Assembly (NCBI GenBank): GCA_007128005.1
Contig: SKYF01000165.1
Coordinates: 1 to 44,419, forward strand
From: Bdellovibrionales bacterium
GTDB taxonomy: Bacteria > Bdellovibrionota > Bdellovibrionia > Bdellovibrionales > UBA1609
DNA: 44,419 nt
Reading direction: 5' to 3'
The notes beneath the pieces were generated by a model. It ran no database searches. It was not told the origin of the DNA and saw only the letters and a program-made list of their open reading frames with translations. Positions 3,329-30,797 of the stretch are shown here, piece by piece. Both the position numbers and the translations under genes were made by a program. Every line of letters starts with the position of its first letter. Within the stretch, counting starts at the first letter, position 1.

Positions 3329-4455
3329 GTTCGTTTTTTAAGTCTGAAAAAGTGATTGTCTGTGCAGGAAGTGGTGGCGTCGGAAAGACCACAATTGCTG
3401 CTTGCTTAGGGATTGGCTTTGCCCGAAGAGGGAAAAGGGTGTTGGTGTTGACTATCGACCCGGCCCGCCGTTTAGCATCGGCTCTGGGCTTGGATATGAA
3501 CGATTTGGGTTCTTTAGTTGAGGTGAAAGTCCCAGGTCAGAGCTACAAGGGCGAACTCTTTGCCTCAATGATTCAACCCCAAGCGGTCTTTGATGAGTTT
3601 GTGCGCCAGCGGGCTTCGTCAGCTCAAGCTGCAGAGAAGTTAATGCGCAACAGTCTCTATCGACAGCTCGTGAGCAGCCTGAGTGGCTCTCAGGAATTTA
3701 CCTCCCTGGAGCGACTGCTGTCGGCTGTCCAGTCAGAGCGCTACGACATTGTGATCTTAGACACCCCGCCAACTCAGCATGCAGTGGATTTTCTCAGAGC
3801 CCCGGAGCGCATCTATTCGCTCTTTCAGGAGTCTGTCACTAAGTGGTTTGCCGCGAAGAGTACTGAGTCCGGAGGCACAGTAAAGACTCTTTTGGGGAAG
3901 GTGGTAGAGCGTGGCACTCACACGGCTTTGCGAGCCCTGGAAAAGATCACTGGATCTGCCTTTGTCGGTGAGCTGGGAGAATTTTTTGCTGCCATGGCGG
4001 ACTTACAGGACCAGGTCAGTGCACGAAGCATAGAGGTCCACAGGCTGTTGACGAGTGAAGCTACGAGCTTTGTTCTCGTCACAGGCTTTGATCACTCTAA
4101 GCTTGTAGAGGCTAAGGATTTTTTTGTTGAACTAAAGAGGGGTGGCTATCGGCTTTCGGGAGTGATTGTGAACAGGAGTCAGCCGGCATGGCTAGAGCTT
4201 GAGCCTCTGCAGGCCAATCTAGCGGACAGAGCCCATAACTTGTCGGTACCCCATATAGAGAGGAGATTTCTTCAACTCTATCAAGAACTTCAGGGCTACT
4301 ATTCATTGAGAAAAGACACCTACCTCAAATTTGAAACAGGGCTGAAGGGGGAGGTGGCCTATTGCCTGATGCCAGAGCTGAAGGAAGTAGTTTATGGTTT
4401 AGAGGGACTTGAGTCGATGAGCTCTATCCTAGAGACAAAGATGGCCTGGGAGTAA
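3325..4455 (+). CDS. ArsA/Get3-like ATPase, second subunit of a coupled pair
   Basis: Second ATPase of the pair, 376 residues from the chosen TTG start. That TTG overlaps the previous stop (TTGA) and has GGAGG four bases upstream, which is better than the track's TTG at 3283. Walker A reads GSGGVGKTT: the signature lysine of deviant Walker A proteins is replaced by serine, although the nucleotide-binding lysine is present. TIDPARRLA and DTPPTQHAVDFL (switch II) are typical of ArsA. Since the signature lysine normally reaches into the partner's active site, the pair looks asymmetric. Cytoplasmic; the real substrate is unknown. Confidence 0.86.
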   Translation: MSSFFKSEKVIVCAGSGGVGKTTIAACLGIGFARRGKRVLVLTIDPARRLASALGLDMNDLGSLVEVKVPGQSYKGELFASMIQPQAVFDEFVRQRASSAQAAEKLMRNSLYRQLVSSLSGSQEFTSLERLLSAVQSERYDIVILDTPPTQHAVDFLRAPERIYSLFQESVTKWFAAKSTESGGTVKTLLGKVVERGTHTALRALEKITGSAFVGELGEFFAAMADLQDQVSARSIEVHRLLTSEATSFVLVTGFDHSKLVEAKDFFVELKRGGYRLSGVIVNRSQPAWLELEPLQANLADRAHNLSVPHIERRFLQLYQELQGYYSLRKDTYLKFETGLKGEVAYCLMPELKEVVYGLEGLESMSSILETKMAWE

Positions 4456-13897: not shown

Positions 13898-15022
13898 GTG
13901 GCAGAAGTTCAAGTGAAATCACAGGCCTCTTTGTATGAGTTGGCTCAGTTGTACTGTGAGCGCGGTGATTTATTGATAGCTCTAGAGAAGTTGAAAGAGG
14001 CTGCGGCGACCTATAGATCTCAGCAAGACTTCGCGAACTTTTTAAAATGTCAAAATATGCTTCTGAGGATCTATGCGGAGCTTGAAGATCATAAAGCTAT
14101 CAATTCCACCAAGGAACTTTTGCAAGACTTGGTCATTAAGGAAGAGCTTGAACTCAGTTCTAAGACTTACTACAGCTTAGCTCTTTGTGCCTCCTATAAG
14201 AGGCAACACAAGGTTGCTCAGGAGTATTTGGAAAAAGCCCTGGCCTTGGCTTTGGAAAAGGATAGCAAGGAGGACATTTGCTACGCCATTCATGGTCTGG
14301 CCTTGGTTTACTATGCGCAAAAACGCTACGAGGATGCGCTGAAGGAAGTCTATAATCTTCAGGTCTTTTTTCAGCTTCTGCCGCTGCCAGAGCTTATGCT
14401 CTCCAGCCGAATCCTCAATGGGCTTATCGTCAGGGATATGGGGCAAAAAGAGCAAGCCTTGGATATTTTTTGGCAGTGCTACGACATTGTAAAGTCGCAG
14501 AAAAACCTCTACACCTACCTACATCTACTCTATTCCATGGGCTCGACCTACCAAGATATGGGTCATCACGATCTGGCCCGCATTTATTTGATGCTGGCGA
14601 AAAGGTCTATTGATCCAGAGAATTTGCGTTATCTCAGTCGTCGAGTGGATGCTCGCTTGGCCGCGATGGGAGATGCCGATCAATCTGACTACGACTTGGT
14701 TTTCGACAGGTCTTCAAACTCTTTGATTGAGAGGAAGAAGGGAAAAATTGATTTTAAAAACCAGTTTATCTTGCTGGACTTGCTAAGGCTTTTCTTGCGC
14801 AACCCGGGCGAAGTTCACTCTAAAGAGGCTTTAGTTAAAAAAGTGTGGCGTCAGGACTACGACCCAGCTGTCCATGACAATAAAATCTATGTAACTATTA
14901 AGCGCCTCAGAAAAATGATTGAACCGGATTATGACAAACCGAAGTATATCTTTCGGGCAAAAAATGGCTACTATTTGAGTAAAAATACTAAGGTGTTATT
15001 TCAGGCAGAGGGCACTCAATGA
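13898..15022 (+). CDS. TPR protein with C-terminal OmpR-type winged-helix domain (regulator)
   Basis: 374 residues, GTG start with AGGAG a few bases upstream. Residues about 5-260 are helical TPR-like repeats (LYELAQLYCERGDLLIALEKL, ALALEKDSKEDICYAIHGLA). Residues about 275-365 form an OmpR/PhoB-type DNA-binding winged helix, with ends such as HSKEALVKKVWR and VYVTIKRLRKMIEPD-like spacing, here IYVTIKRLRKMI followed by the hairpin FRAKNGYYL. Unlike response regulators it has no receiver domain, and the DNA-binding part is last, not first as in SARP regulators. TPRs probably sense a protein or peptide partner. It overlaps the next gene (ATGA), suggesting a shared function. Targets are unknown. 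Confidence 0.82.
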   Translation: MAEVQVKSQASLYELAQLYCERGDLLIALEKLKEAAATYRSQQDFANFLKCQNMLLRIYAELEDHKAINSTKELLQDLVIKEELELSSKTYYSLALCASYKRQHKVAQEYLEKALALALEKDSKEDICYAIHGLALVYYAQKRYEDALKEVYNLQVFFQLLPLPELMLSSRILNGLIVRDMGQKEQALDIFWQCYDIVKSQKNLYTYLHLLYSMGSTYQDMGHHDLARIYLMLAKRSIDPENLRYLSRRVDARLAAMGDADQSDYDLVFDRSSNSLIERKKGKIDFKNQFILLDLLRLFLRNPGEVHSKEALVKKVWRQDYDPAVHDNKIYVTIKRLRKMIEPDYDKPKYIFRAKNGYYLSKNTKVLFQAEGTQ

Positions 15023-17457: not shown

Positions 17458-18507
17458 ATGTCTGAAACCTGGAGTTCATTCAGTGGAGCTGGTGAGCCTG
17501 AATTTAAAGGCTTGGTTTTGGATCAAGTCGAAGAACTTATGGCGGACAGTCTTCATCGACTCAAGACCCATCGTTTGGCCCAACTCAGCCTTGAGCATTT
17601 AAGCTCAGGAGGCCGGCGATTGAGAGCTCGACTGGCTCTGGATGTGGGCAAAGCCCTAGGCGTAGAGACTCACCTCAATGTGTCATGGGCTGCTGCCTGT
17701 GAGCTTCTTCACAATGCCACTTTGGTATTAGACGACATTCAAGATCAAGATGAGGAAAGACGTGGGCAGCCCACTTTGTGGGCTAAGCACGGCTTGCCTG
17801 CAGCCCTCAATGTGGGAGAGCTGCTTTTGATGCTTCCCCATTGGATCATCAAGCAGATGCATCTGCCTGCGGAGAGACAAGTTGAGCTGTTGGGAAAAAT
17901 GACTGACACCTGCATCTGCCTGGTCTCTGGACAGATGGATGAGACCACGCTTCAAGATCAACTGGAGAGGGTTGACCTTTGGCAGAGTTACTTAGAGGCA
18001 ATCAGTGGAAAAACTTCCCCCCTTTTTGAGCTCCCTGTTTGGGGAAATGTCTTTATTGCAACGGGGGATGTCGCCCTCGCCCAGCGCTGGGCACAACCCT
18101 TTCGTCACTTTGGCGTCGTCTTTCAACTGGCTGATGATCTGGCGGATGTTTTGGGAAAAAAGGAAGGACGCAGGCGGGGGGCTGACCTCATGGAGGGCAA
18201 AGTGTCTGCCTTAATTCCTCTCTATCTCAAAGATCGACCCGAAAAGACGCAGGAGCTAAAGCGGTTCCTGCAAACAGATCGAGGACAATTGGATACTAAG
18301 ATCATCAATTATTGGCTGGAGGAATTCGAATCCCAGGGAATCTTTGATGAGCTTCATGCTCGAATACTCTACTGGCTCAAATCATTTGGACAGAGTTCGC
18401 TTCGCCAGGAGCAGCCAGAGGTCTATCAAATAGGTGTTTTTTACCTTCGCCAAGTTTTATCAACTTTTGGTTACAGTCAGGATGAGGATTTTTATGGCAT
18501 TTTATAA
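17458..18507 (+). CDS. crtE: Polyprenyl synthetase, probably geranylgeranyl diphosphate synthase
   Basis: Condenses IPP with allylic diphosphates to supply the C20 precursor of carotenoids. 349 residues. GGRRLR (51-56) precedes the first Asp-rich motif DDIQD (92-96), and the second, DDLAD, is at 226-230 within FQLADDLAD. The ATG follows a run of G (GGGGGGGTGGG), an unusual but usable ribosome binding site. It is the first gene of a four-gene operon: its last 14 bases overlap the crtI start. Chain length cannot be read with certainty, but the next gene products use C20 units. Cytoplasmic or membrane-associated. Confidence 0.88.
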   Translation: MSETWSSFSGAGEPEFKGLVLDQVEELMADSLHRLKTHRLAQLSLEHLSSGGRRLRARLALDVGKALGVETHLNVSWAAACELLHNATLVLDDIQDQDEERRGQPTLWAKHGLPAALNVGELLLMLPHWIIKQMHLPAERQVELLGKMTDTCICLVSGQMDETTLQDQLERVDLWQSYLEAISGKTSPLFELPVWGNVFIATGDVALAQRWAQPFRHFGVVFQLADDLADVLGKKEGRRRGADLMEGKVSALIPLYLKDRPEKTQELKRFLQTDRGQLDTKIINYWLEEFESQGIFDELHARILYWLKSFGQSSLRQEQPEVYQIGVFYLRQVLSTFGYSQDEDFYGIL

Positions 18508-20098
18508 TACTGAGTTTCAAGCTGAATTTGGAAAGAGTTCTACGCGAGCAGTTGTTATTGGGACTGGTTTTGGCGGGCTAGCTGCAGCGATCCGGCTGAG
18601 GGCAAAGGGCTATCAGGTCACCATGGTCGAAGGGACTGACCAGCCGGGGGGAAGAGCATCTGTTTTTAAAAGAGATGGTTTTACTTTTGATGCCGGACCA
18701 ACCGTGATCACGGCTCCCTACCTTCTTCAAGAGCTGTTTACTTTATTGGGAGAGGACTGGCAGGAGTTTTTTTCTCTAGTTCCGATTGATCCCTTTTACC
18801 GGATTGTCTTTCATGACGGCAGTCACTTTGACTATGTGGGTGAGGAGGACAGAATTTTAGAGAACATCCGCAGTCTTAGCCCTCAGGATGTCGATGGCTA
18901 CCGTAAACTTGCTGAGCATTCCCGGCGTATTTTTGACGTAGGCTATACAAAGCTTGCAGATAAACCCTTTGAGAAATGGACAGATATGCTCAAAGTGGCT
19001 CCTGATATGATTCGCCTGCAGAACTATCAGAGCGTTTACGGTCTGGTCAGTCGATATATCAAAGACGAAAGGCTGCGTCAGGCCTTTAGCTTCGAGCCCT
19101 TATTGGTGGGAGGAAACCCATTTACTACAACTAGTATTTACTTATTGATTCATTGGCTTGAGAGAAAGTGGGGAGTGTGGTTTGTAAAGGGAGGCACAAC
19201 TGCTTTGGTGCAATCCATGGTGAGGCTGTTAAAAAAGCATCATGTAGACATTCAGTTGAGCTCTCCCGTACATAAAATTCGCGTTGAAAAAGGGAAGGTC
19301 CAAGGAGTTGAAATTGAGGATGGTCGATTTATTCCCGCTGATCTTGTGGTGTCCAATGCAGACCCCATGAGAGTGTATGGGCAGATGATTGATACTCAAT
19401 GGCTGAAAAAGCACAGTCCAAGGAGACTGGCCCGGAAAAAGGCTTCGATGAGTCTATTTGTAGCTTATTTTGGAGCAAAAAAGACTTATCCGGACTTAGC
19501 TCATCACACAATTCTGTTGGGGCCGCGATACAAGGGTCTGCTTAAGGACATCTTCTCTAAAAGGGTTTTGGCGGATGATTTTAGCCTCTATCTTCATGCG
19601 CCCACCCGCACGGATGCCTCTCTGGCTCCCGAGGGCCACGAGTGTTTTTACGTGCTGTCGCCTGTACCCAACAACCTTAGTGGGATCAATTGGCAAGAAG
19701 AGGGAGAGAGATACTGTGAAAAGATTTTCAATTGGCTGGACAAAAACCATTTGCCCGGTTTGAAGGCCAATCTCATTTCAACATCCTTTGTCTCGCCCGA
19801 CTATTTTGAAAGGAACCTGCGCTCTCACCAGGGGTCCGGTTTTGGTTTAGAGCCAAATTTTCGTCAGTCAGCTTATTTTAGATTTCACAACCGCTCAGAG
19901 GATGTGGAGGGCTTGTACTTTGTGGGAGCCAGCACTCATCCGGGGGCGGGAGTTCCTGGGGTGTTGAACTCGGCCCGGCTTTTGGACAGACTGATTCCGC
20001 AGGTTCAGGATTTAGGGAGATCAACCTTCCGAGGAGCAGCGGATGCTGTTCAAGAAATGGGTGGACCAAAGAGGGGAGATGAGCTTGCAGCCCCGTGA
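18494..20098 (+). CDS. crtI: Phytoene desaturase (CrtI type)
   Basis: FAD-dependent desaturase converting phytoene towards lycopene. The start is placed at ATG 18494, where GAGG lies six to seven bases upstream, giving 534 residues; the track start 60 bases earlier lies inside crtE. The N-terminal dinucleotide-binding motif VVIGTGFGGLAAA is followed by PGGRAS and DAGPTVI, and the C-terminal family signature GASTHPGAGVPGV is intact. It overlaps crtE by 14 bp and crtB by up to 56 bp. The number of desaturation steps cannot be deduced, but context (lycopene cyclase) favours lycopene as product. Confidence 0.93.
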   Translation: MAFYNTEFQAEFGKSSTRAVVIGTGFGGLAAAIRLRAKGYQVTMVEGTDQPGGRASVFKRDGFTFDAGPTVITAPYLLQELFTLLGEDWQEFFSLVPIDPFYRIVFHDGSHFDYVGEEDRILENIRSLSPQDVDGYRKLAEHSRRIFDVGYTKLADKPFEKWTDMLKVAPDMIRLQNYQSVYGLVSRYIKDERLRQAFSFEPLLVGGNPFTTTSIYLLIHWLERKWGVWFVKGGTTALVQSMVRLLKKHHVDIQLSSPVHKIRVEKGKVQGVEIEDGRFIPADLVVSNADPMRVYGQMIDTQWLKKHSPRRLARKKASMSLFVAYFGAKKTYPDLAHHTILLGPRYKGLLKDIFSKRVLADDFSLYLHAPTRTDASLAPEGHECFYVLSPVPNNLSGINWQEEGERYCEKIFNWLDKNHLPGLKANLISTSFVSPDYFERNLRSHQGSGFGLEPNFRQSAYFRFHNRSEDVEGLYFVGASTHPGAGVPGVLNSARLLDRLIPQVQDLGRSTFRGAADAVQEMGGPKRGDELAAP

Positions 20099-20984
20099 AA
20101 TTATGGCCCATCATGCGAAGTCCTTTTATTGGGCTTCGCAGTTCTTGTCCCCAGTGACTTTTGACCGAGTGGCCAGTCTCTATAGCTTTTGTCGCCACAT
20201 TGACGATGCGGTCGATAGGAACAGCCTTGAGGAGGGGCAGCGCCAGTTGACTCAGATTGGGGCTGAGATGCAGGGCCTTGAAGTGCCGCGAGCAGAGGTC
20301 AGAGCTCTATTGGATTTGATGGTGGAGACGAAAATTCCTGTGGAGTGGCCTCTTCAGCTCTGGTTAGGAGCAGAGTCGGACTTGACGGGTGTGGATATCC
20401 AAACTGAGGCAGACCTCCTAGTGTACTCCTACCGGGTGGCCGGAGTTGTAGGCCTGATGATGTGCCCTCTTTTAGGAGTTTATGATCGCAGAGCTTGGCC
20501 TTTTGCCATTGACTTGGGAATTGCCATGCAGCTGACCAATATTTGCCGAGATGTGGGAGAGGATGCGGAGATAGGGCGCAATTATCTTCCTGCGGAGTGG
20601 TGGCAGTTATCCGCAGGCAGATATCCTACTGTTGCCGATTTGGTTCCAAGAGCTGTGAATCTGGCTGAGATTTATTATGAAAGTGGACGACAAGGCTACC
20701 CCTTTATTCCCTGGCGGGAAAGGTTGGCAATTGCGGTGGCAGCTCGTGTTTATAGAGGTATAGGCCTTAAGGTTCTCAAGGACCCAGGTCAGGTCATGTC
20801 TAAGAGAGTTTATTTGACGAAGTGGGAAAAAATTTATTGGACTTTAGTTGGGCTCAAGGATTTTTTTGTGAGTTTGAGGCAAAGTGGGGTTGGGCAAGCA
20901 AGAGCCCATCAACAGCATTTGCATAAGACTTTGAGGAATCTTCCAGGAGTGGTCGAAGACAAACCAGTAGGAGTGCAGCTATGA
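20043..20984 (+). CDS. crtB: Phytoene synthase
   Basis: Head-to-head condensation of two geranylgeranyl diphosphates to phytoene. Both Asp-rich Mg-binding motifs are seen, DDAVD (54-58) and DVGED (170-174), with the squalene/phytoene synthase hallmark NICRDVGED. The chosen ATG has GAGGAG six bases upstream and gives 313 residues; an ATG at 20079 (MSLQPRE) would fit the family N-terminus equally well. The start lies inside crtI, and the stop overlaps the cyclase start (ATGA). Likely membrane-associated. Confidence 0.93.
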   Translation: MLFKKWVDQRGEMSLQPREIMAHHAKSFYWASQFLSPVTFDRVASLYSFCRHIDDAVDRNSLEEGQRQLTQIGAEMQGLEVPRAEVRALLDLMVETKIPVEWPLQLWLGAESDLTGVDIQTEADLLVYSYRVAGVVGLMMCPLLGVYDRRAWPFAIDLGIAMQLTNICRDVGEDAEIGRNYLPAEWWQLSAGRYPTVADLVPRAVNLAEIYYESGRQGYPFIPWRERLAIAVAARVYRGIGLKVLKDPGQVMSKRVYLTKWEKIYWTLVGLKDFFVSLRQSGVGQARAHQQHLHKTLRNLPGVVEDKPVGVQL

Positions 20985-21742
20985 CCTATGCTCAGTTTCA
21001 TCTTGTGTTCACAGTGCCTTTATTGGCCGTCCTATTTTTTTTGGCTCGTCGGACTTGGCAGCAACGGGAGGTTCAGTTTTTTTCAGGGCTGATATTTCTG
21101 AGCCTGATTGCCTTTGTCTATACCACTCCATGGGATAACTATTTGGTGTACAAAGGGGTATGGACCTATGAGCCACACAGAGTTTTAGCGGTGATTGGCT
21201 ACGTTCCCATTGAGGAGTATGCCTTTTTTATTCTGCAGACACTCATTACGGGAGTGGCTCTTTGGCTGCTGCGGCACCACTGGCGGGCGAGGACCCTGAA
21301 GCGACTCGTTGTATCCTCCTTTTTTATAAAATCCCTAGGGGTGGCCGTTTATTTGGGGGCGGCTTTACTAGGGGTTTTTCTATGGGGTCAGGAGTCCTGG
21401 ACCTATCTGTCCTTGATTTTGGTTTGGGCCTATCCAGTCTTGGCTTTTCAATGGGCCTATGGGGGAGACCAATTGGTCAAGGATTGGCCCTACTTTGTTG
21501 TGGGTGTTGGAGTTACGACTCTTTACTTTTGTATCGCCGATGCCATTGCAATTGGTTTAGGTGTATGGGAGATATCGACTCAATGGACATCGGGATGGGC
21601 CATTGGAATTCTGCCCTTTGAAGAGGCGTTTTTCTTTTTCACCACCAATTTATTAGTTGTGCAAGGTCTGTGGCTATTTTGGTGGGCCTGGGATCAAGGT
21701 AAAATCCCTGGTCAAGGCGAGCTTGTGAGGAAGCTCGCCTGA
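20981..21742 (+). CDS. crtYcd: Lycopene cyclase, fused CrtYc-CrtYd type
   Basis: 253-residue membrane protein built of two homologous halves, each about 100 residues with three or more membrane helices. The half-signatures are PWDNYLVYKGVW..PIEEYAFF in the first and GVWEIS..LPFEEAFFF in the second; PxEE is typical of this heterodimeric-type cyclase. In Gram-positive bacteria the halves are separate (CrtYc, CrtYd); fused forms occur in some other bacteria, archaea and fungi. Product would be beta- or gamma-carotene. No hydroxylase, ketolase or glycosyltransferase follows in the window. The final codons form a 9-bp perfect hairpin. Confidence 0.88.
   Translation: MTYAQFHLVFTVPLLAVLFFLARRTWQQREVQFFSGLIFLSLIAFVYTTPWDNYLVYKGVWTYEPHRVLAVIGYVPIEEYAFFILQTLITGVALWLLRHHWRARTLKRLVVSSFFIKSLGVAVYLGAALLGVFLWGQESWTYLSLILVWAYPVLAFQWAYGGDQLVKDWPYFVVGVGVTTLYFCIADAIAIGLGVWEISTQWTSGWAIGILPFEEAFFFFTTNLLVVQGLWLFWWAWDQGKIPGQGELVRKLA
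21716..21739 (+). terminator. GC-rich hairpin at the end of the crt operon
   Basis: GGCGAGCTT-GTGAGG-AAGCTCGCC, a 9-bp perfect stem ending at the cyclase stop codon. There is no T-run, so it may stabilise the mRNA 3' end or act with a termination factor and not as a classical intrinsic terminator. Confidence 0.4.
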
Positions 21743-21778: not shown

Positions 21779-22582
21779 TCAATCCAAAGAGCACAGGAAC
21801 TCGACTGTTGTAGCCAGAGCCTGTTCTACAAGATCTCTTTGCGTGAACATCAGGCGGTCAGCAGAATACTCTAAATCCGGGCCAAGAGGAGACCAATCCC
21901 CCGCCCTTCTGAGGAGAGCCTCAATTTCCAAAGCACGAGCCTCTGCATCCGGAGAAAATTCAGGGGGCAGATGATAGGAGCGGATGAGTTCCATAAGGTT
22001 AACATAAAGGGCAACCCAGGCCACACCTCGGACCATTGTTCCTCTTACTCTTCCTCCTCCGTAGATCTGAGGGTAGTGATGGAGGGCTTGCACCAGGATT
22101 ACTGAACCCATGGTCTTAAAGGCAGGGCCAATTCCTTGAGCCAACCTTTGCGAGCTCCGCGAGCTCTCCCCGGCTTCCTGAAGGCGGTCCAGCTCTTCTG
22201 TGAGGAGATTTGCGTAGGCCACATTCACACTGGGAAAGTAATCCAGGGGGAGCCACCGGTCACTGAGCCAGGAGCATTGAAAGTCTTCATAACTCGAAAC
22301 TAAAGAGGCCCTGGGGTATTCGCCGCTAGACTCGCAGATTGCGTAGTTAAAGAACTCGTCACGTAGATGCAAAATCAGACTGCGGCGAGTTCTCTGTAAA
22401 GAGGAGGTGTTGTAAAACTGAGCCTGCTGAAGCTGGGTTTGAGCTGGACTGTGAATCCAGTCATCTTGGGAGGGGCAGAGAACAAAATCCATCTCTTTAG
22501 CGTCGGCCTGAGCAGCGGGGCTGACATTGAAAAGACAAAAAATGCTAAAAGCCAAGTAAGAGGCTAGACTTTGCAACTTCAC
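21779..22582 (-). CDS. Hypothetical secreted protein
   Basis: Unrecognised. The start is moved to the GTG that gives MKLQSLASYLAFSIF, a clean signal peptide with probable cleavage after AQA; the track's TTG is 18 bases earlier and has no ribosome binding site. Mature protein of about 240 residues with four or more Cys (LCPSQ, AICESS, QCSWLS, FLCSLD), which could form disulfides in the periplasm, and a mostly helical C-terminal half. It converges on the crt operon with 36 bp between, and is divergent from another secreted protein gene. No enzyme motif seen. Confidence 0.68.
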   Translation of the reverse strand: MKLQSLASYLAFSIFCLFNVSPAAQADAKEMDFVLCPSQDDWIHSPAQTQLQQAQFYNTSSLQRTRRSLILHLRDEFFNYAICESSGEYPRASLVSSYEDFQCSWLSDRWLPLDYFPSVNVAYANLLTEELDRLQEAGESSRSSQRLAQGIGPAFKTMGSVILVQALHHYPQIYGGGRVRGTMVRGVAWVALYVNLMELIRSYHLPPEFSPDAEARALEIEALLRRAGDWSPLGPDLEYSADRLMFTQRDLVEQALATTVEFLCSLD

Positions 22583-22741
22583 AACTTCAGCCCTAGCCAA
22601 TGTGGCAAGGGGAATCTAGTTTTTTATTTGATTTGTAGAAAATACCTGGGGCCCGATGGGCCCACATCGAAAACTCTATGCATTGTCAGGCAGAGAGGTC
22701 TTTCGTAACTTCTCAGGGCAACAAATTAACGAGGGGGGCTT

Positions 22742-23851
22742 ATGTCCATAGGATTATTTTTTAATCGGGTTTTCATTCTGAGTGGAATTCTTTTTTTTGC
22801 TACTGGGGTTCAAGCCAAGCAGCTGGATTATAGGGGGGGATTTGTTGAGTACTCTGAACCCACTTATCTATTTTGTGATGGCAATGTGGAATTGGCCGAA
22901 CACTTGGCTCGGGGAGCAATCACGTCCCTGCAAAACATCCTTTTAGAGATCAATGAGCGCCATCCCATTCCTGATCTGGTGATGGACTATGACACCATTG
23001 TTCAGATGGACCGCCATGAGGATGAGATTGTCAGGTCAGTGGGCCGAATCAATGAGTTTATCGCAAAACAGAGGGAGCGCCGAGGGGGAGAGTGGGGTTG
23101 GCATCAACTCTGTCCGAAGGCCCTGGTGGTGGTCGGGGGGGCCAGCTTTGGCAAAAAGAGCTTTCTTGTGGCTCCTGGAGGCTCCGTAGCCATTGGTCTT
23201 GTAGTTATGCCCACCATAAAGTCGCGCTACGATAGTCGCACGGGAGAGTTTTTAGGTGCCTACTTCTCACCTGAGATGGCCATCGTGGGTTGGCCCAATG
23301 CCGATATTGGGTTGGGTATTGGTGAGAAGACATCTTCGGGCCGACTTTTTGGTGGATTTATTTGGGACATTGAGGATGTGATGGCGAAAGCTGAAGACTT
23401 TCACGGCTTTGCCATGGGTGGATCTGGAACGGCTGCAGGCCTACCCAGCCGCTTAGTTTCCTTGCCGATTCTCTCCGGCCTGAACACCTTCCTGGCGGGG
23501 CGTGGGGTGAATGTGAAGCTCGGTGGGGTCAAGCAGGTGTCTCGAGCTTCTGAGGCTCAGGTTGAGTTTGCTTATCTTCTATTTGGATCTAATCTCTCCA
23601 AGTTTACTCAGCCTCCAAGAGTTCGCTTTGAATCCCATGTCAACATCGCCTCAGTTCTATCTTTTGATAGTTTAATCAAAATGTTAGGCACTGCGGTTGT
23701 GGACTCAAGTCGACGCCAGGAGCAGGCTATTCAGGATGCCATTCGAAGAGCTGTTGAAGATGCACTGATTGACCCCGATATGCAACCCCGGCCTCCTGGT
23801 CGGGGAACGACAAATCCCCCAAGGCGAGGGGTGCAGGCGGAAGCTGAATGA
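22742..23851 (+). CDS. Hypothetical secreted protein
   Basis: 369 residues, unrecognised. A signal peptide (FILSGILFFATGVQA, cleavage likely after QA) precedes a mature region that contains long Gly-rich, beta-like stretches (VVVGGASFGKKSFLVAPGG, GWPNADIGLGIG), and a C-terminal helical then Pro/Arg-rich tail (RPPGRGTTNPPRRG). GAGG lies a few bases before the ATG. The beta-rich middle could be an outer-membrane or lipid-associated domain, but it has no C-terminal aromatic residue typical of a porin. Its neighbour upstream on the other strand is also secreted and they share a 159-bp intergenic region. Confidence 0.7.
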   Translation: MSIGLFFNRVFILSGILFFATGVQAKQLDYRGGFVEYSEPTYLFCDGNVELAEHLARGAITSLQNILLEINERHPIPDLVMDYDTIVQMDRHEDEIVRSVGRINEFIAKQRERRGGEWGWHQLCPKALVVVGGASFGKKSFLVAPGGSVAIGLVVMPTIKSRYDSRTGEFLGAYFSPEMAIVGWPNADIGLGIGEKTSSGRLFGGFIWDIEDVMAKAEDFHGFAMGGSGTAAGLPSRLVSLPILSGLNTFLAGRGVNVKLGGVKQVSRASEAQVEFAYLLFGSNLSKFTQPPRVRFESHVNIASVLSFDSLIKMLGTAVVDSSRRQEQAIQDAIRRAVEDALIDPDMQPRPPGRGTTNPPRRGVQAEAE

Positions 23852-24597: not shown

Positions 24598-24629
24598 AAA
24601 CCAGTCAGTAAAAATGCCTGGCTTTTTTT
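24596..24629 (+). terminator. Candidate terminator after the DsbA-like lipoprotein
   Basis: CCAG..CTGG with flanking A-run and C-interrupted T-run (seven T). The GC core is only 4 bp, so the signal is weak. Confidence 0.4.
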
Positions 24630-24702
24630 GTCCGTGAGGCCCTTTTTTGTCACCTAAAGGGGCCTGAAATTGCTTCTAGAGTGTGAGAATTCCTTCTAAA
24701 TA

Positions 24703-24718
24703 TGGCACAGGCCTTGCT
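24703..24718 (+). promoter_or_regulatory. Sigma-54 (-24/-12) promoter
   Basis: TGGCAC-AGGCC-TTGCT: GG and GC are separated by exactly 10 bp, matching the RpoN consensus TGGCAC-N5-TTGCW at all the core positions. It lies about 40 bp before the coiled-coil gene's ATG, which puts the predicted transcript start near 24729, giving a leader of about 29 nt with AAGGA as ribosome binding site. An activator protein with an upstream enhancer would be required; none is encoded in the window. Confidence 0.8.
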
Positions 24719-24757
24719 GTACCAGTGGGAGTAGCAAAGCCCGAAAAGGAGTCTCTC

Positions 24758-25405
24758 ATGAAGAAGATTATTAGTTCCCTGAGTCTATTTTTAGCTGTGG
24801 TCTTTTCACTGCAAGTTCAAGCTAGGTCCATTGCCAGCATCCATGAGTTGGATTTTGACCTGGAGGCAGAAGAAATGCAGTTTTTTGATGCTCAGAAGCT
24901 CGAGGAAAGAGCTCGAGAGGAGGCCCTTGCTCTGGAGAGGGAGGCGGCCCGTCTGGAGAGAGAGATTAAGCGCTCTGAGCAAGAGAGAGGGCGGATTGGA
25001 ACCCGAGTTCAGAGGCTATCTCAACGCTACGATCAGAGCCTGGCAGTGTATCAACGCGTAGAGAAGAGGGCTCAGGCAGAGGAGCGCAGGTTGCGTCAGG
25101 CAGAGGCAGAGTTGAATAAAGTAGAAGCTCAAGTGGATAAGGTTGAGGCCCAGGCCATTCAGGCCAGAGAGCGACGTCAGGCCGCCGAGCAACGCATTGC
25201 TCAGGCTGAGCGGCGGACCGTTCAGCTTTACAAGCGTTTAGAGCAACTTAAGCGCCAACTGCAGGAGGAGCAGCAGCGGGCTCAGTCTCTGGGTCAAAGA
25301 GAGCAGCGGATTGAAAGGGAAAATCAGAGAGTTTCCCAACTGGTTGAAAGAGAGCGGCAGAAGCTTAACTTCTATTCCGAATCCGCTTTCGATAACTGGC
25401 AGTAA
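24758..25405 (+). CDS. Secreted coiled-coil protein
   Basis: 215 residues from the ATG with AAGGA seven bases upstream; the track start 75 bases earlier lies upstream of and inside the sigma-54 promoter and would not be transcribed in full. A signal peptide (ISSLSLFLAVVFSLQ, cleavage after VQA) is followed by an almost unbroken charged coiled coil from about residue 45 to 205, rich in Glu, Arg, Gln and Ala with heptad-like periodicity. There is no Cys in the mature part. Probably a periplasmic rod or scaffold. Its dedicated sigma-54 promoter suggests stage- or stress-dependent expression. It ends 1 bp from the convergent rnhA stop. Confidence 0.8.
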   Translation: MKKIISSLSLFLAVVFSLQVQARSIASIHELDFDLEAEEMQFFDAQKLEERAREEALALEREAARLEREIKRSEQERGRIGTRVQRLSQRYDQSLAVYQRVEKRAQAEERRLRQAEAELNKVEAQVDKVEAQAIQARERRQAAEQRIAQAERRTVQLYKRLEQLKRQLQEEQQRAQSLGQREQRIERENQRVSQLVERERQKLNFYSESAFDNWQ

Positions 25406-28527: not shown

Positions 28528-29523
28528 CTAGCTCTCCTTGGGCAATGACACTCTAAAGCAGGCTCCGCCCAATGGAGACCGACCTAGGCTGACAGACCCA
28601 TTATGAGCCTCAGCACACATTTTCACTGAAAACAATCCTAGTCCTCGCCCCTGCCCCTTAGAGCTCTTAAAGGGTGCAAAGACCTGCTCCTTTTCTACCT
28701 CTCCTATGCCAGGACCATTGTCATGCACTTCCACCAAGAAAGAGTCAGGGGCCTTAATTAGATGTACTTCAATTAAGCCCTGCTGTTCAAGGACAGCTTC
28801 TGATGCATTGAGGACTAAGTTGATCAGCATCTGTTGAATGAGCACTGGGTAGCTCAGATAAGGCTCTGGGGACTCCCCCAGGCTGTCCATTATTTTCACC
28901 TGAACTCCTCTTGTGTCCAACTGGTAGGACAGTAGACCGGCAACTTCTCTGGTCAGTTCGCGCAGATTGACAAAACTCTTTTCCCCAAAGGAGTTCTGTT
29001 CTCCCACATGGCGCATCTGATGGGCGAGCTGAGTCAAACTGTCCAAGCCCTTCAAAAGGCGCTCCACCTCAGATAGAAGAGGGTCTGGAGAGGTTGCCGA
29101 AGAAGCTTCTGGTGGCTGGTCCATAAGGCCTCTGAGCCTTTCAGCAATAAAGTTCATCGATTGTAGAACGTTGTTGTAGTCATGGGCTATGGAAGCCAGT
29201 GACAGTCCGGTTAGAGCCTGGGGCTGTGATTTCATCAGCAGCTTTTGGTTGGCTTGCAGTTGATGGCGAGCCCTCTGCCGGGAGATCAGACAGGACAGCA
29301 GTAGGCCAAACAACAGAATGGCTCCAAAGGCTGCCAAAGTCGTCGCCTGGGGGCCTTTGCGTATATTAAATTCATCAATAGTTTCAATGACTTCAGTAGC
29401 ATCGACGATCCACATATTACCCCAATAAAGGGAGGTAAAAGACAGTATGAAAAAAATGCCCGCAATAAGTAGGGCGGGAACAAGGGCTGGGATGACTAGG
29501 GTCTTAACGTGTTGTCTGCGCAC
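28528..29523 (-). CDS. Membrane sensor histidine kinase, orphan
   Basis: 331 residues with a GTG start of weak ribosome binding site. Two membrane segments (about residues 8-32 and 62-82) enclose a periplasmic loop of only about 30 residues, so a large sensor domain is absent. The phospho-acceptor box SIAHDYNNVLQ has His114; the N box NLVLNASEAV, G1 DNGPGIG and G2 GQGRGLGLF form a complete HATPase_c domain. The HD-x-NN-x-L type H box is shared with NtrB-like kinases. No response regulator is adjacent. Being upstream of typA with a 7-bp gap, it is likely in the same transcript. Confidence 0.88.
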   Translation of the reverse strand: MRRQHVKTLVIPALVPALLIAGIFFILSFTSLYWGNMWIVDATEVIETIDEFNIRKGPQATTLAAFGAILLFGLLLSCLISRQRARHQLQANQKLLMKSQPQALTGLSLASIAHDYNNVLQSMNFIAERLRGLMDQPPEASSATSPDPLLSEVERLLKGLDSLTQLAHQMRHVGEQNSFGEKSFVNLRELTREVAGLLSYQLDTRGVQVKIMDSLGESPEPYLSYPVLIQQMLINLVLNASEAVLEQQGLIEVHLIKAPDSFLVEVHDNGPGIGEVEKEQVFAPFKSSKGQGRGLGLFSVKMCAEAHNGSVSLGRSPLGGACFRVSLPKES

Positions 29524-29660
29524 AAAAACTTTCAGCTCTTGAAATCTTGATCAAGGCCCTTGCGAACTTGAATCTTTTCGGGTTTAAGAATGGCTTATAT
29601 GAAAACTGCCCAGATATTAGCGATGGGTTCTGTTTTTGGTCAATATTTAATGGAGGTTTT

Positions 29661-30797
29661 ATGAAGAGCATCCCTCGTCAGAGTTTTCGTGAGCTGGTTG
29701 AGCACAGCCAGGCCCCAAGTGTCAGTATCTATTCTCCCATGGTGGTCGCGGGCTCTGAAGTTCAACAAAACCCCATCCGTTTCAAAAACCTTCTCAATGA
29801 GGCCAAGAAGGTCTTAACTGAAGAGCAGCAACAGATGCTGGCACCTGCTGAAAAACTTCTGGAGGATCCCATGTTCTGGCAGCACCAGGGACCAGGTTTG
29901 GCCGTGTTTTTGGCCAAAGATTTTTTTAAGTACTACCAACTCCCTATGGATGTGAAGCCCCTGGTGCAAGTCAGTCGGCACTTTCACATCAGTCCTCTTG
30001 TTCGGGTGTTCAATGAGGACGGACAGTTTTACGTCTTGTCCCTAAGCATGGGGGGGGCTCACCTGTATCGAGCCTCTCACTTTGATCTGGAGGAGATGGA
30101 GCTGGGAGCCGCCGTGCCCAAGAGCCTGGATGAGGCCTTGGAGGGGCTGCAAAAGGAAAAGGCCCTTAACTATCATTCTCAGAACACAGGTGGAGGGGCT
30201 GAGGCCGTTTACCATGGCCATGATGACCCAAATGCCCACCGCCAGGATTTATTGCGTTGGTTCAGGCCTTTAGCTCAAGAAGTCAGAAGACTGCTCAATG
30301 AACAGGGAGGTGGTCCCTTGGTCTTGGCAGGGGTGGAGTATCTGCACCCCATTTTTAGAGAGGCCATAGATTACAGTGGTCTTACGGATACAGCTGTGAT
30401 GGGTTCAATTGAAGAAATGTCAGAAAAGGAGCTTTTGGAGAAGGCCTGGCCCTGTGTAGAAGAAGTGATCAAGTCCAGGGAGATGGCCACCTTGGAGAGA
30501 CTAAATAATTTATCGGGGTCGGGTAAGACCTCTGAGCAACTTGAGGAAGTAGTCAAGGAGTCTCTGCAGGGCCGTGTGGACACCTTGTTTTTGAGTCAAG
30601 AGCATCAGGTTTGGGGTCAGTGGCAGGAAGAATCTGAACCAAATAATTTTTCCTTTGAAACTGCCAACCCGCCTGCAGCTGAGGAGTTGATGAATCTGGC
30701 CGCCATTCACACTATCCGTAAAGGCGGTAAAGTGCATGTTGTGGCCCCAGAGCAGATGCCTAGAGGGGCTGGGATGGCAGCCCTGTTTCGCTACTGA
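29661..30797 (+). CDS. Bacterial eRF1-family protein (baeRF3-like)
   Basis: 378 residues from the ATG with TGGAGG four bases upstream; the track's start 114 bases earlier is not supported. The order of motifs PSVSIYSPM, IRFKNLLNEA, FWQHQGPGLAVFLA and FYVLSLSMGGAHLYRAS, then GPLVLAGVEYLHPIFREA, matches my memory of the bacterial archaeo-eukaryotic release-factor family group 3. Members resemble eRF1/Pelota middle and C-terminal domains and are predicted to act in ribosome rescue or termination; no bacterial experiment proves this for every group. Cytoplasmic. It ends by overlapping the mscS stop by 7 bp. Confidence 0.72.
   Translation: MKSIPRQSFRELVEHSQAPSVSIYSPMVVAGSEVQQNPIRFKNLLNEAKKVLTEEQQQMLAPAEKLLEDPMFWQHQGPGLAVFLAKDFFKYYQLPMDVKPLVQVSRHFHISPLVRVFNEDGQFYVLSLSMGGAHLYRASHFDLEEMELGAAVPKSLDEALEGLQKEKALNYHSQNTGGGAEAVYHGHDDPNAHRQDLLRWFRPLAQEVRRLLNEQGGGPLVLAGVEYLHPIFREAIDYSGLTDTAVMGSIEEMSEKELLEKAWPCVEEVIKSREMATLERLNNLSGSGKTSEQLEEVVKESLQGRVDTLFLSQEHQVWGQWQEESEPNNFSFETANPPAAEELMNLAAIHTIRKGGKVHVVAPEQMPRGAGMAALFRY

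Follow-up and report, generated by a model that had tools for sequence, protein, structure and literature searches.

Exported coiled-coil proteins are encoded together with ExbB, ExbD, TonB-like and TPR proteins in systems of the TonB2 type, where the gene order is DUF3450-ExbB-ExbB-ExbD-TonB-TPR. Gliding motors of the Agl-Glt type are found in Myxococcus xanthus (AglRQS and Glt), and Bdellovibrio carries agl/tonB-like operons; the genes for GltH, I, J and K are reported to be absent from that genus (PMC3169522). Expression of the four agl-type operons differs between stages: in strain HD100, Bd0412-Bd0420 is up-regulated 4-7-fold at 30 min of predation whereas the three paralogous operons are not (PMC2797640), and the Bd0411-Bd0421 proteins are most abundant between 45 min and 1 h (PMC12546842). 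Most of the attack-phase promoters that have been mapped belong to the FliA type, and it proved impossible to map starts for the growth phase (PMC3627812). In the literature searched, we found no description of a regulator of the prey-entry-induced agl-type operon, of sigma-54 control of one Agl paralogue, or of a coiled-coil partner of the kind considered here in the Agl-Glt system.

The DNA analysed here, referred to as the window (44,419 nucleotides; contig SKYF01000165.1 of the Bdellovibrionales assembly GCA_007128005.1, from a relative of predatory bacteria), contains a gene for an exported coiled-coil protein, for which a preliminary description had proposed a sigma-54 promoter. What the present analysis adds is that the putative enhancer motif of this gene is, on sequence evidence, common to a gliding-type motor operon.

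The coiled-coil gene and its promoter

The gene and its upstream region comprise the following features:

24601-24629, plus strand: probable terminator of the upstream DsbA-like gene, CCAG...CTGG followed by a T run (by eye)
24637-24653, plus strand: candidate enhancer-like site AGGCCCTTTTTTGTCAC, 49 bp before the -24 element (matrix p=0.002; enriched pentamer)
24703-24718, plus strand: predicted sigma-54 -24/-12 promoter TGGCACAGGCCTTGCT (exact consensus, kept upstream of orthologues)
24729, plus strand: predicted transcription start (from the -12 position)
24744-24751, plus strand: ribosome binding site AAAAGGAG (sequence)
24758-25405, plus strand: exported coiled-coil protein, 215 aa, apparently monocistronic (translation; 17-member family alignment)
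24758-24823, plus strand: signal peptide MKKIISSLSLFLAVVFSLQVQA followed by RS, cleavage after VQA at residue 22 (by eye)
24845-25399, plus strand: uninterrupted helix or coiled coil, residues 30-214 (AlphaFold2 and heptad period)

The proposed promoter with exact -24/-12 spacing is borne out, since TGGCACAGGCCTTGCT has no mismatch to the consensus, with its GG and GC exactly spaced, and is the sole site without a mismatch in the window. The distance to the gene, previously given as 40 bp, amounts to 39 bp between the -24/-12 site and the ATG at 24758, the good ribosome binding site is present as described, and transcription is predicted to start near 24729 because of the position of the -12 element. 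In the genome as scanned (2.57 Mb in 212 contigs) there are 5 perfect -24/-12 sites compared with 2 for a reversed control pattern, and a single perfect match, which might arise by chance, is therefore only moderate evidence when taken alone. At up to one mismatch the counts are 81 versus 21, and these comparisons with the reversed control indicate that sigma-54 promoters do exist in this genome, which encodes one copy of rpoN and 10 strong Sigma54_activat genes.

The gene, whose stop codon ends at 25405, lies between the probable terminator that follows the DsbA-like gene and an RNase H-like gene in convergent orientation, and is therefore probably monocistronic (a terminator scan with a loop limit of 8 did not call the CCAG...CTGG hairpin at 24601-24629). 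Its product had been described as an exported rod with one long coiled coil, and the present data agree: the signal peptide is recognisable by eye, the AlphaFold2 monomer model consists of one helix spanning residues 30-214 (mean pLDDT 85), and hydrophobic residues recur with a period of 3.50 in 16 of the 17 family members. Each of the 17 sequences in the alignment starts with a signal-like N terminus and contains both an acidic stretch and a long coil, at identities down to ca. 20%. The protein is accordingly modeled as a canonical unbroken coiled coil of ca. 170-185 residues and roughly 25 nm in length. No Pfam or NCBIfam family matches it, the weak hits being to other coiled coils, and membership of DUF3450 (PF11932) was rejected, with no match in the 17 members at a threshold of 0.001.

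Several other genes of the window were also recorded. Two exported proteins without a Pfam or NCBIfam match are encoded near the coiled-coil gene (22742-23851 and 21779-22600), the former being kept upstream in a sister species (L011). A compact, overlapping carotenoid cluster occupies 17458-21742 on the plus strand and encodes a polyprenyl synthetase, an amino-oxidase-type (CrtI-like) dehydrogenase, a phytoene synthase and a lycopene cyclase. The region 13898-15022 encodes a protein in which, unusually, TPR repeats come first and the winged-helix (Trans_reg_C) domain is C-terminal; a membrane-bound protein that resembles histidine kinases and contains a HATPase domain is encoded at 28528-29523 on the minus strand, with no obvious adjoining response regulator; and the gene for a protein of the baeRF (bacterial archaeo-eukaryotic release-factor) family at 29547-30797 adjoins one for an MscS-type channel.

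Conservation of the promoter and of an upstream palindrome

Orthologues of the coiled-coil protein were found in 17 genomes and then more widely by profile, while a search of genome contigs with the protein alone gave no match and a wider profile search outside its families returned mostly coil noise. Within the 200 bp upstream of 26 orthologous genes from other species, a -24/-12 site is present at up to one mismatch in 16 cases (0.1 in shuffled sequences) and at up to two mismatches in 21 (1.2 in shuffles); the species are related, so that neither these counts nor those for co-occurrence below represent independent events. Compared with the shuffles, this conservation is strong evidence for a working promoter, which on this showing appears both real and ancient.

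A palindrome was found when an enhancer-binding site was sought upstream, as the preliminary description had advised. It has the form GTG(A/C)C-N7-GTCAC, a 17-bp inverted repeat that precedes the -24 element by ca. 40-70 bp, and a conserved candidate copy lies at 24637-24653 in the window. In a pentamer count over the region 31-95 bp upstream, made without a matrix, separately for two promoter sets and at sites picked regardless of the palindrome, GTCAC/GTGAC is the most enriched pentamer both in the promoters of Agl-type operons (23 of 27, with 2.4 expected) and in those of the coiled-coil genes (13 of 24, with 1.7 expected). The plain pattern GTCACN36-66TGGCAYN5TTGC is found in 31 of 59 genomes, compared with 3 for the control; no fewer than 12 of its occurrences lie at the Agl operon and 3 at the coiled-coil gene. 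When the coiled-coil promoters are scored with a matrix derived from Agl promoters in other genomes, 26 of 29 reach p<=0.05, and the palindrome of the window has p=0.002 against shuffles; the enhancer matrices were, however, bootstrapped from one another, and it is consequently the pentamer and plain pattern counts, which alone are free of circularity, that carry weight.

On its own, at up to one mismatch, the palindrome is not above control genome-wide (64 per strand versus 144), and is as a consequence informative solely beside a -24/-12 site. Its distances to the -24 element cluster near 38-41, 48-50, 56-61 and 67-70 bp, in groups ca. 10 bp apart, a spacing which, when compared with uniform distances, is suggestive only. 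The 10 strong activators of the genome include two-component NtrC-type pairs, one FHA-type protein and one orphan, and one of the 10 genes adjoins flagellar rod genes; none of these candidates was linked to the palindrome, and tblastn searches with three of the activators against retrieved flanks of the motor operons detected no activator gene there. The conservation of the site, the presence of rpoN with 10 activators and the enhancer-like palindrome together argue strongly for the earlier view that a secreted coiled-coil protein has a dedicated RpoN promoter.

A motor operon with the same predicted promoter

The best other match to the enhancer and sigma-54 elements in the genome is located at C11:14465-14450, with GTGCCCTTAATTGTCAC 72 bp upstream. 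The operon that this match precedes encodes an AglR/ExbB protein (PF01618, MotA_ExbB, 1.7e-27; 86% identity to a Bdellovibrionales MAG protein), two ExbD/TolR proteins (PF02472, 1.9e-11 and 2.7e-13), a 941-aa TPR protein, a 100-aa exported protein, a GltG-like protein with an AgmX/PglI tail, a lipoprotein, an OMP-like barrel and a TPR protein. The GltG-like protein matches NF033760 with E=6.6e-39, its AgmX/PglI tail lying above the cut-off, and scores 134 bits compared with a cut-off of 650 for GltG itself. The coiled-coil gene is located outside this operon. The same promoter precedes the motor operon in many named Bdellovibrionales MAGs, and it distinguishes between paralogues: among the AglR/ExbB proteins, the site is present for 40 of the 46 members of one type and for none of the 29 of the other. 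In a tree of all 75 proteins, the label of having the site changes 5 times, compared with a mean of 25 for shuffled labels, and the 29 site-less paralogues form one well-supported group. In myxobacterial and other outgroup loci, nothing comparable precedes the ExbB gene, and sigma-54 control thus seems specific to Bdellovibrionales.

A third gene with both the enhancer and the sigma-54 site encodes a zinc-ribbon/TM/TPR protein (contig C80), for which the same promoter is seen in about half of the orthologues read. The regulon was assembled in this way from site searches and selected genome stretches. Just upstream of the zinc-ribbon/TPR gene, at 84-1150 (L106, G000:C80), lies a second ExbD-like gene pair. 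On the reverse strand of a further contig (L105, G000:C39), at ca. 3338-3759, the sequence TGGAACGCTTCTTGCT, with GTGGCCAGAATTGTCAT lying 59 bp upstream of it, is likely to be another promoter of the regulon; it precedes a gene for a membrane or exported protein cut by the contig end.

In the family to which the window belongs, the coiled-coil gene and the sigma-54 motor operon are found together in all 17 genomes that have the former, while among the 8 family genomes examined that lack it a clear motor site is present in none and a weak one in 1 (Fisher p 9e-7 or 1.7e-5, respectively, with relatedness ignored). For some of the family motor operons, a site with 2-3 mismatches was counted on account of the accompanying palindrome. 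In 2 of the 8 genomes without the coiled-coil gene (G006 and G013), the AglR protein is of the right type and the site is missing. Outside the family, several Bdellovibrionales, including the probable Bdellovibrio genome G048, have the sigma-54 motor operon with no coiled-coil gene detected. The coiled coil is therefore not a universal part, and the regulon predates it or extends more widely.

A proposed regulon and its alternatives

The conservation of the promoter, the common enhancer motif, the co-occurrence and the rod shape lead us to consider it likely that the coiled-coil gene belongs to a phase-specific sigma-54 regulon centered on one Agl-Glt-like motor, in which the coiled coil would serve as a periplasmic strut or adaptor. 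According to this proposal, RNA polymerase with sigma-54 would transcribe the coiled-coil gene from 24703-24718 in an rpoN-dependent manner, once activated by one bacterial enhancer-binding protein bound as a dimer to GTG(A/C)C-N7-GTCAC at 24637-24653. The same activator would turn on the C11 Agl-Glt-like motor operon and the zinc-ribbon/TPR gene, and the coiled coil would be produced only when the motor is produced, presumably in a prey or surface phase. The exported rod would be located in the periplasm in physical contact with the ion-driven motor, most likely as its strut, spacer or adaptor. We regard as possible, but hold more tentatively, the general statement that in Bdellovibrionales one Agl-Glt-type motor, separately from its paralogues, is under a dedicated prey-entry sigma-54 activator and, in part of the order, has an undescribed periplasmic coiled-coil part for force transmission or spacing.

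Three of the elements of this proposal can be read differently. That the -24/-12 match is due to chance or is a relic, with another sigma factor transcribing the gene, would be in keeping with the mere 5 perfect sites in the genome versus 2 in the reversed control, yet is extremely improbable given that the site is conserved in position among orthologues with protein identities down to ca. 20%, that a conserved enhancer motif lies upstream of it, and that a search upstream of the gene found no sigma-70-type promoter match. The helix might also be a monomeric single alpha-helix of the ER/K type, as the richness of the protein in E, K, R and Q and the lone helix of the AlphaFold2 model would allow, but the sharp hydrophobic period of 3.50 in 16 of 17 members is the sign of a heptad core and makes this very unlikely. 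The palindrome, being an unexceptional 17-bp inverted repeat to which none of the 10 activators was linked, could be the operator of an ordinary repressor or other regulator rather than a sigma-54 activator site; this appears unlikely in view of the preferred distances, ca. 10 bp apart, upstream of the -24 elements, of the 40-70 bp range that suits activator sites, and of the fact that the -24/-12 element and the palindrome are missing together from the second AglR paralogue type.

A more serious alternative accepts the promoter as real and common to the Agl-type operon, but sees the coiled coil as a general envelope protein of the same life phase, a periplasmic spacer or a peptidoglycan or outer-membrane tether, and not as part of the motor. 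The location of the gene outside the motor operon, the lack of a Pfam or NCBIfam domain, the occurrence of the motor operon without the coiled-coil gene in several families, and a straight rod of ca. 25 nm that fits the periplasm are all compatible with such a role. However, the association with the sigma-54 motor operon in 17 of 17 genomes, together with absence from the 8 examined genomes that have no clear one, is tighter than a general envelope function would need, and we consider this alternative a real possibility, though not the favored one. If the preferred reading of a motor-linked regulon is correct, the combination of sigma-54 element and enhancer that characterizes one paralogue type would constitute a direct, testable switch, and the common enhancer would point to further candidate parts of the motor, the coiled coil first among them.

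Comparison with known systems

Compared with classical NtrC-type promoters dependent on sigma-54 and an enhancer-binding protein, the locus has the same arrangement of a -24/-12 element with an upstream palindrome, in a genome that encodes rpoN and activators, but no match to a known activator site was obtained for the palindrome GTGMC-N7-GTCAC. The association of an exported coiled-coil protein with an ExbB/ExbD/TPR set is reminiscent of the TonB2-type systems, which differ in that here there is no DUF3450, the coiled-coil gene lies outside the operon and the operon has no second ExbB. The Agl-Glt systems of M. xanthus and Bdellovibrio share AglR/ExbB, two ExbD/TolR, TPR and GltG-like components with the C11 operon, and the Agl-Glt core complex has the same kinds of component (PMC3169522).

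In G048, nine minus-strand genes at 410-419 kb form an operon with a perfect sigma-54 site and an enhancer site, while a paralogue at 2.44 Mb has neither; no orthologue of the coiled-coil protein was detected in this genome. The operon is like Bd0412-Bd0420 of B. bacteriovorus HD100 in position and gene number, and by this match is presumably the counterpart of that operon. The special timing that the preliminary description had read from the promoter is in this respect plausible by analogy, through an operon with the same predicted control that is placed like one induced on prey entry.
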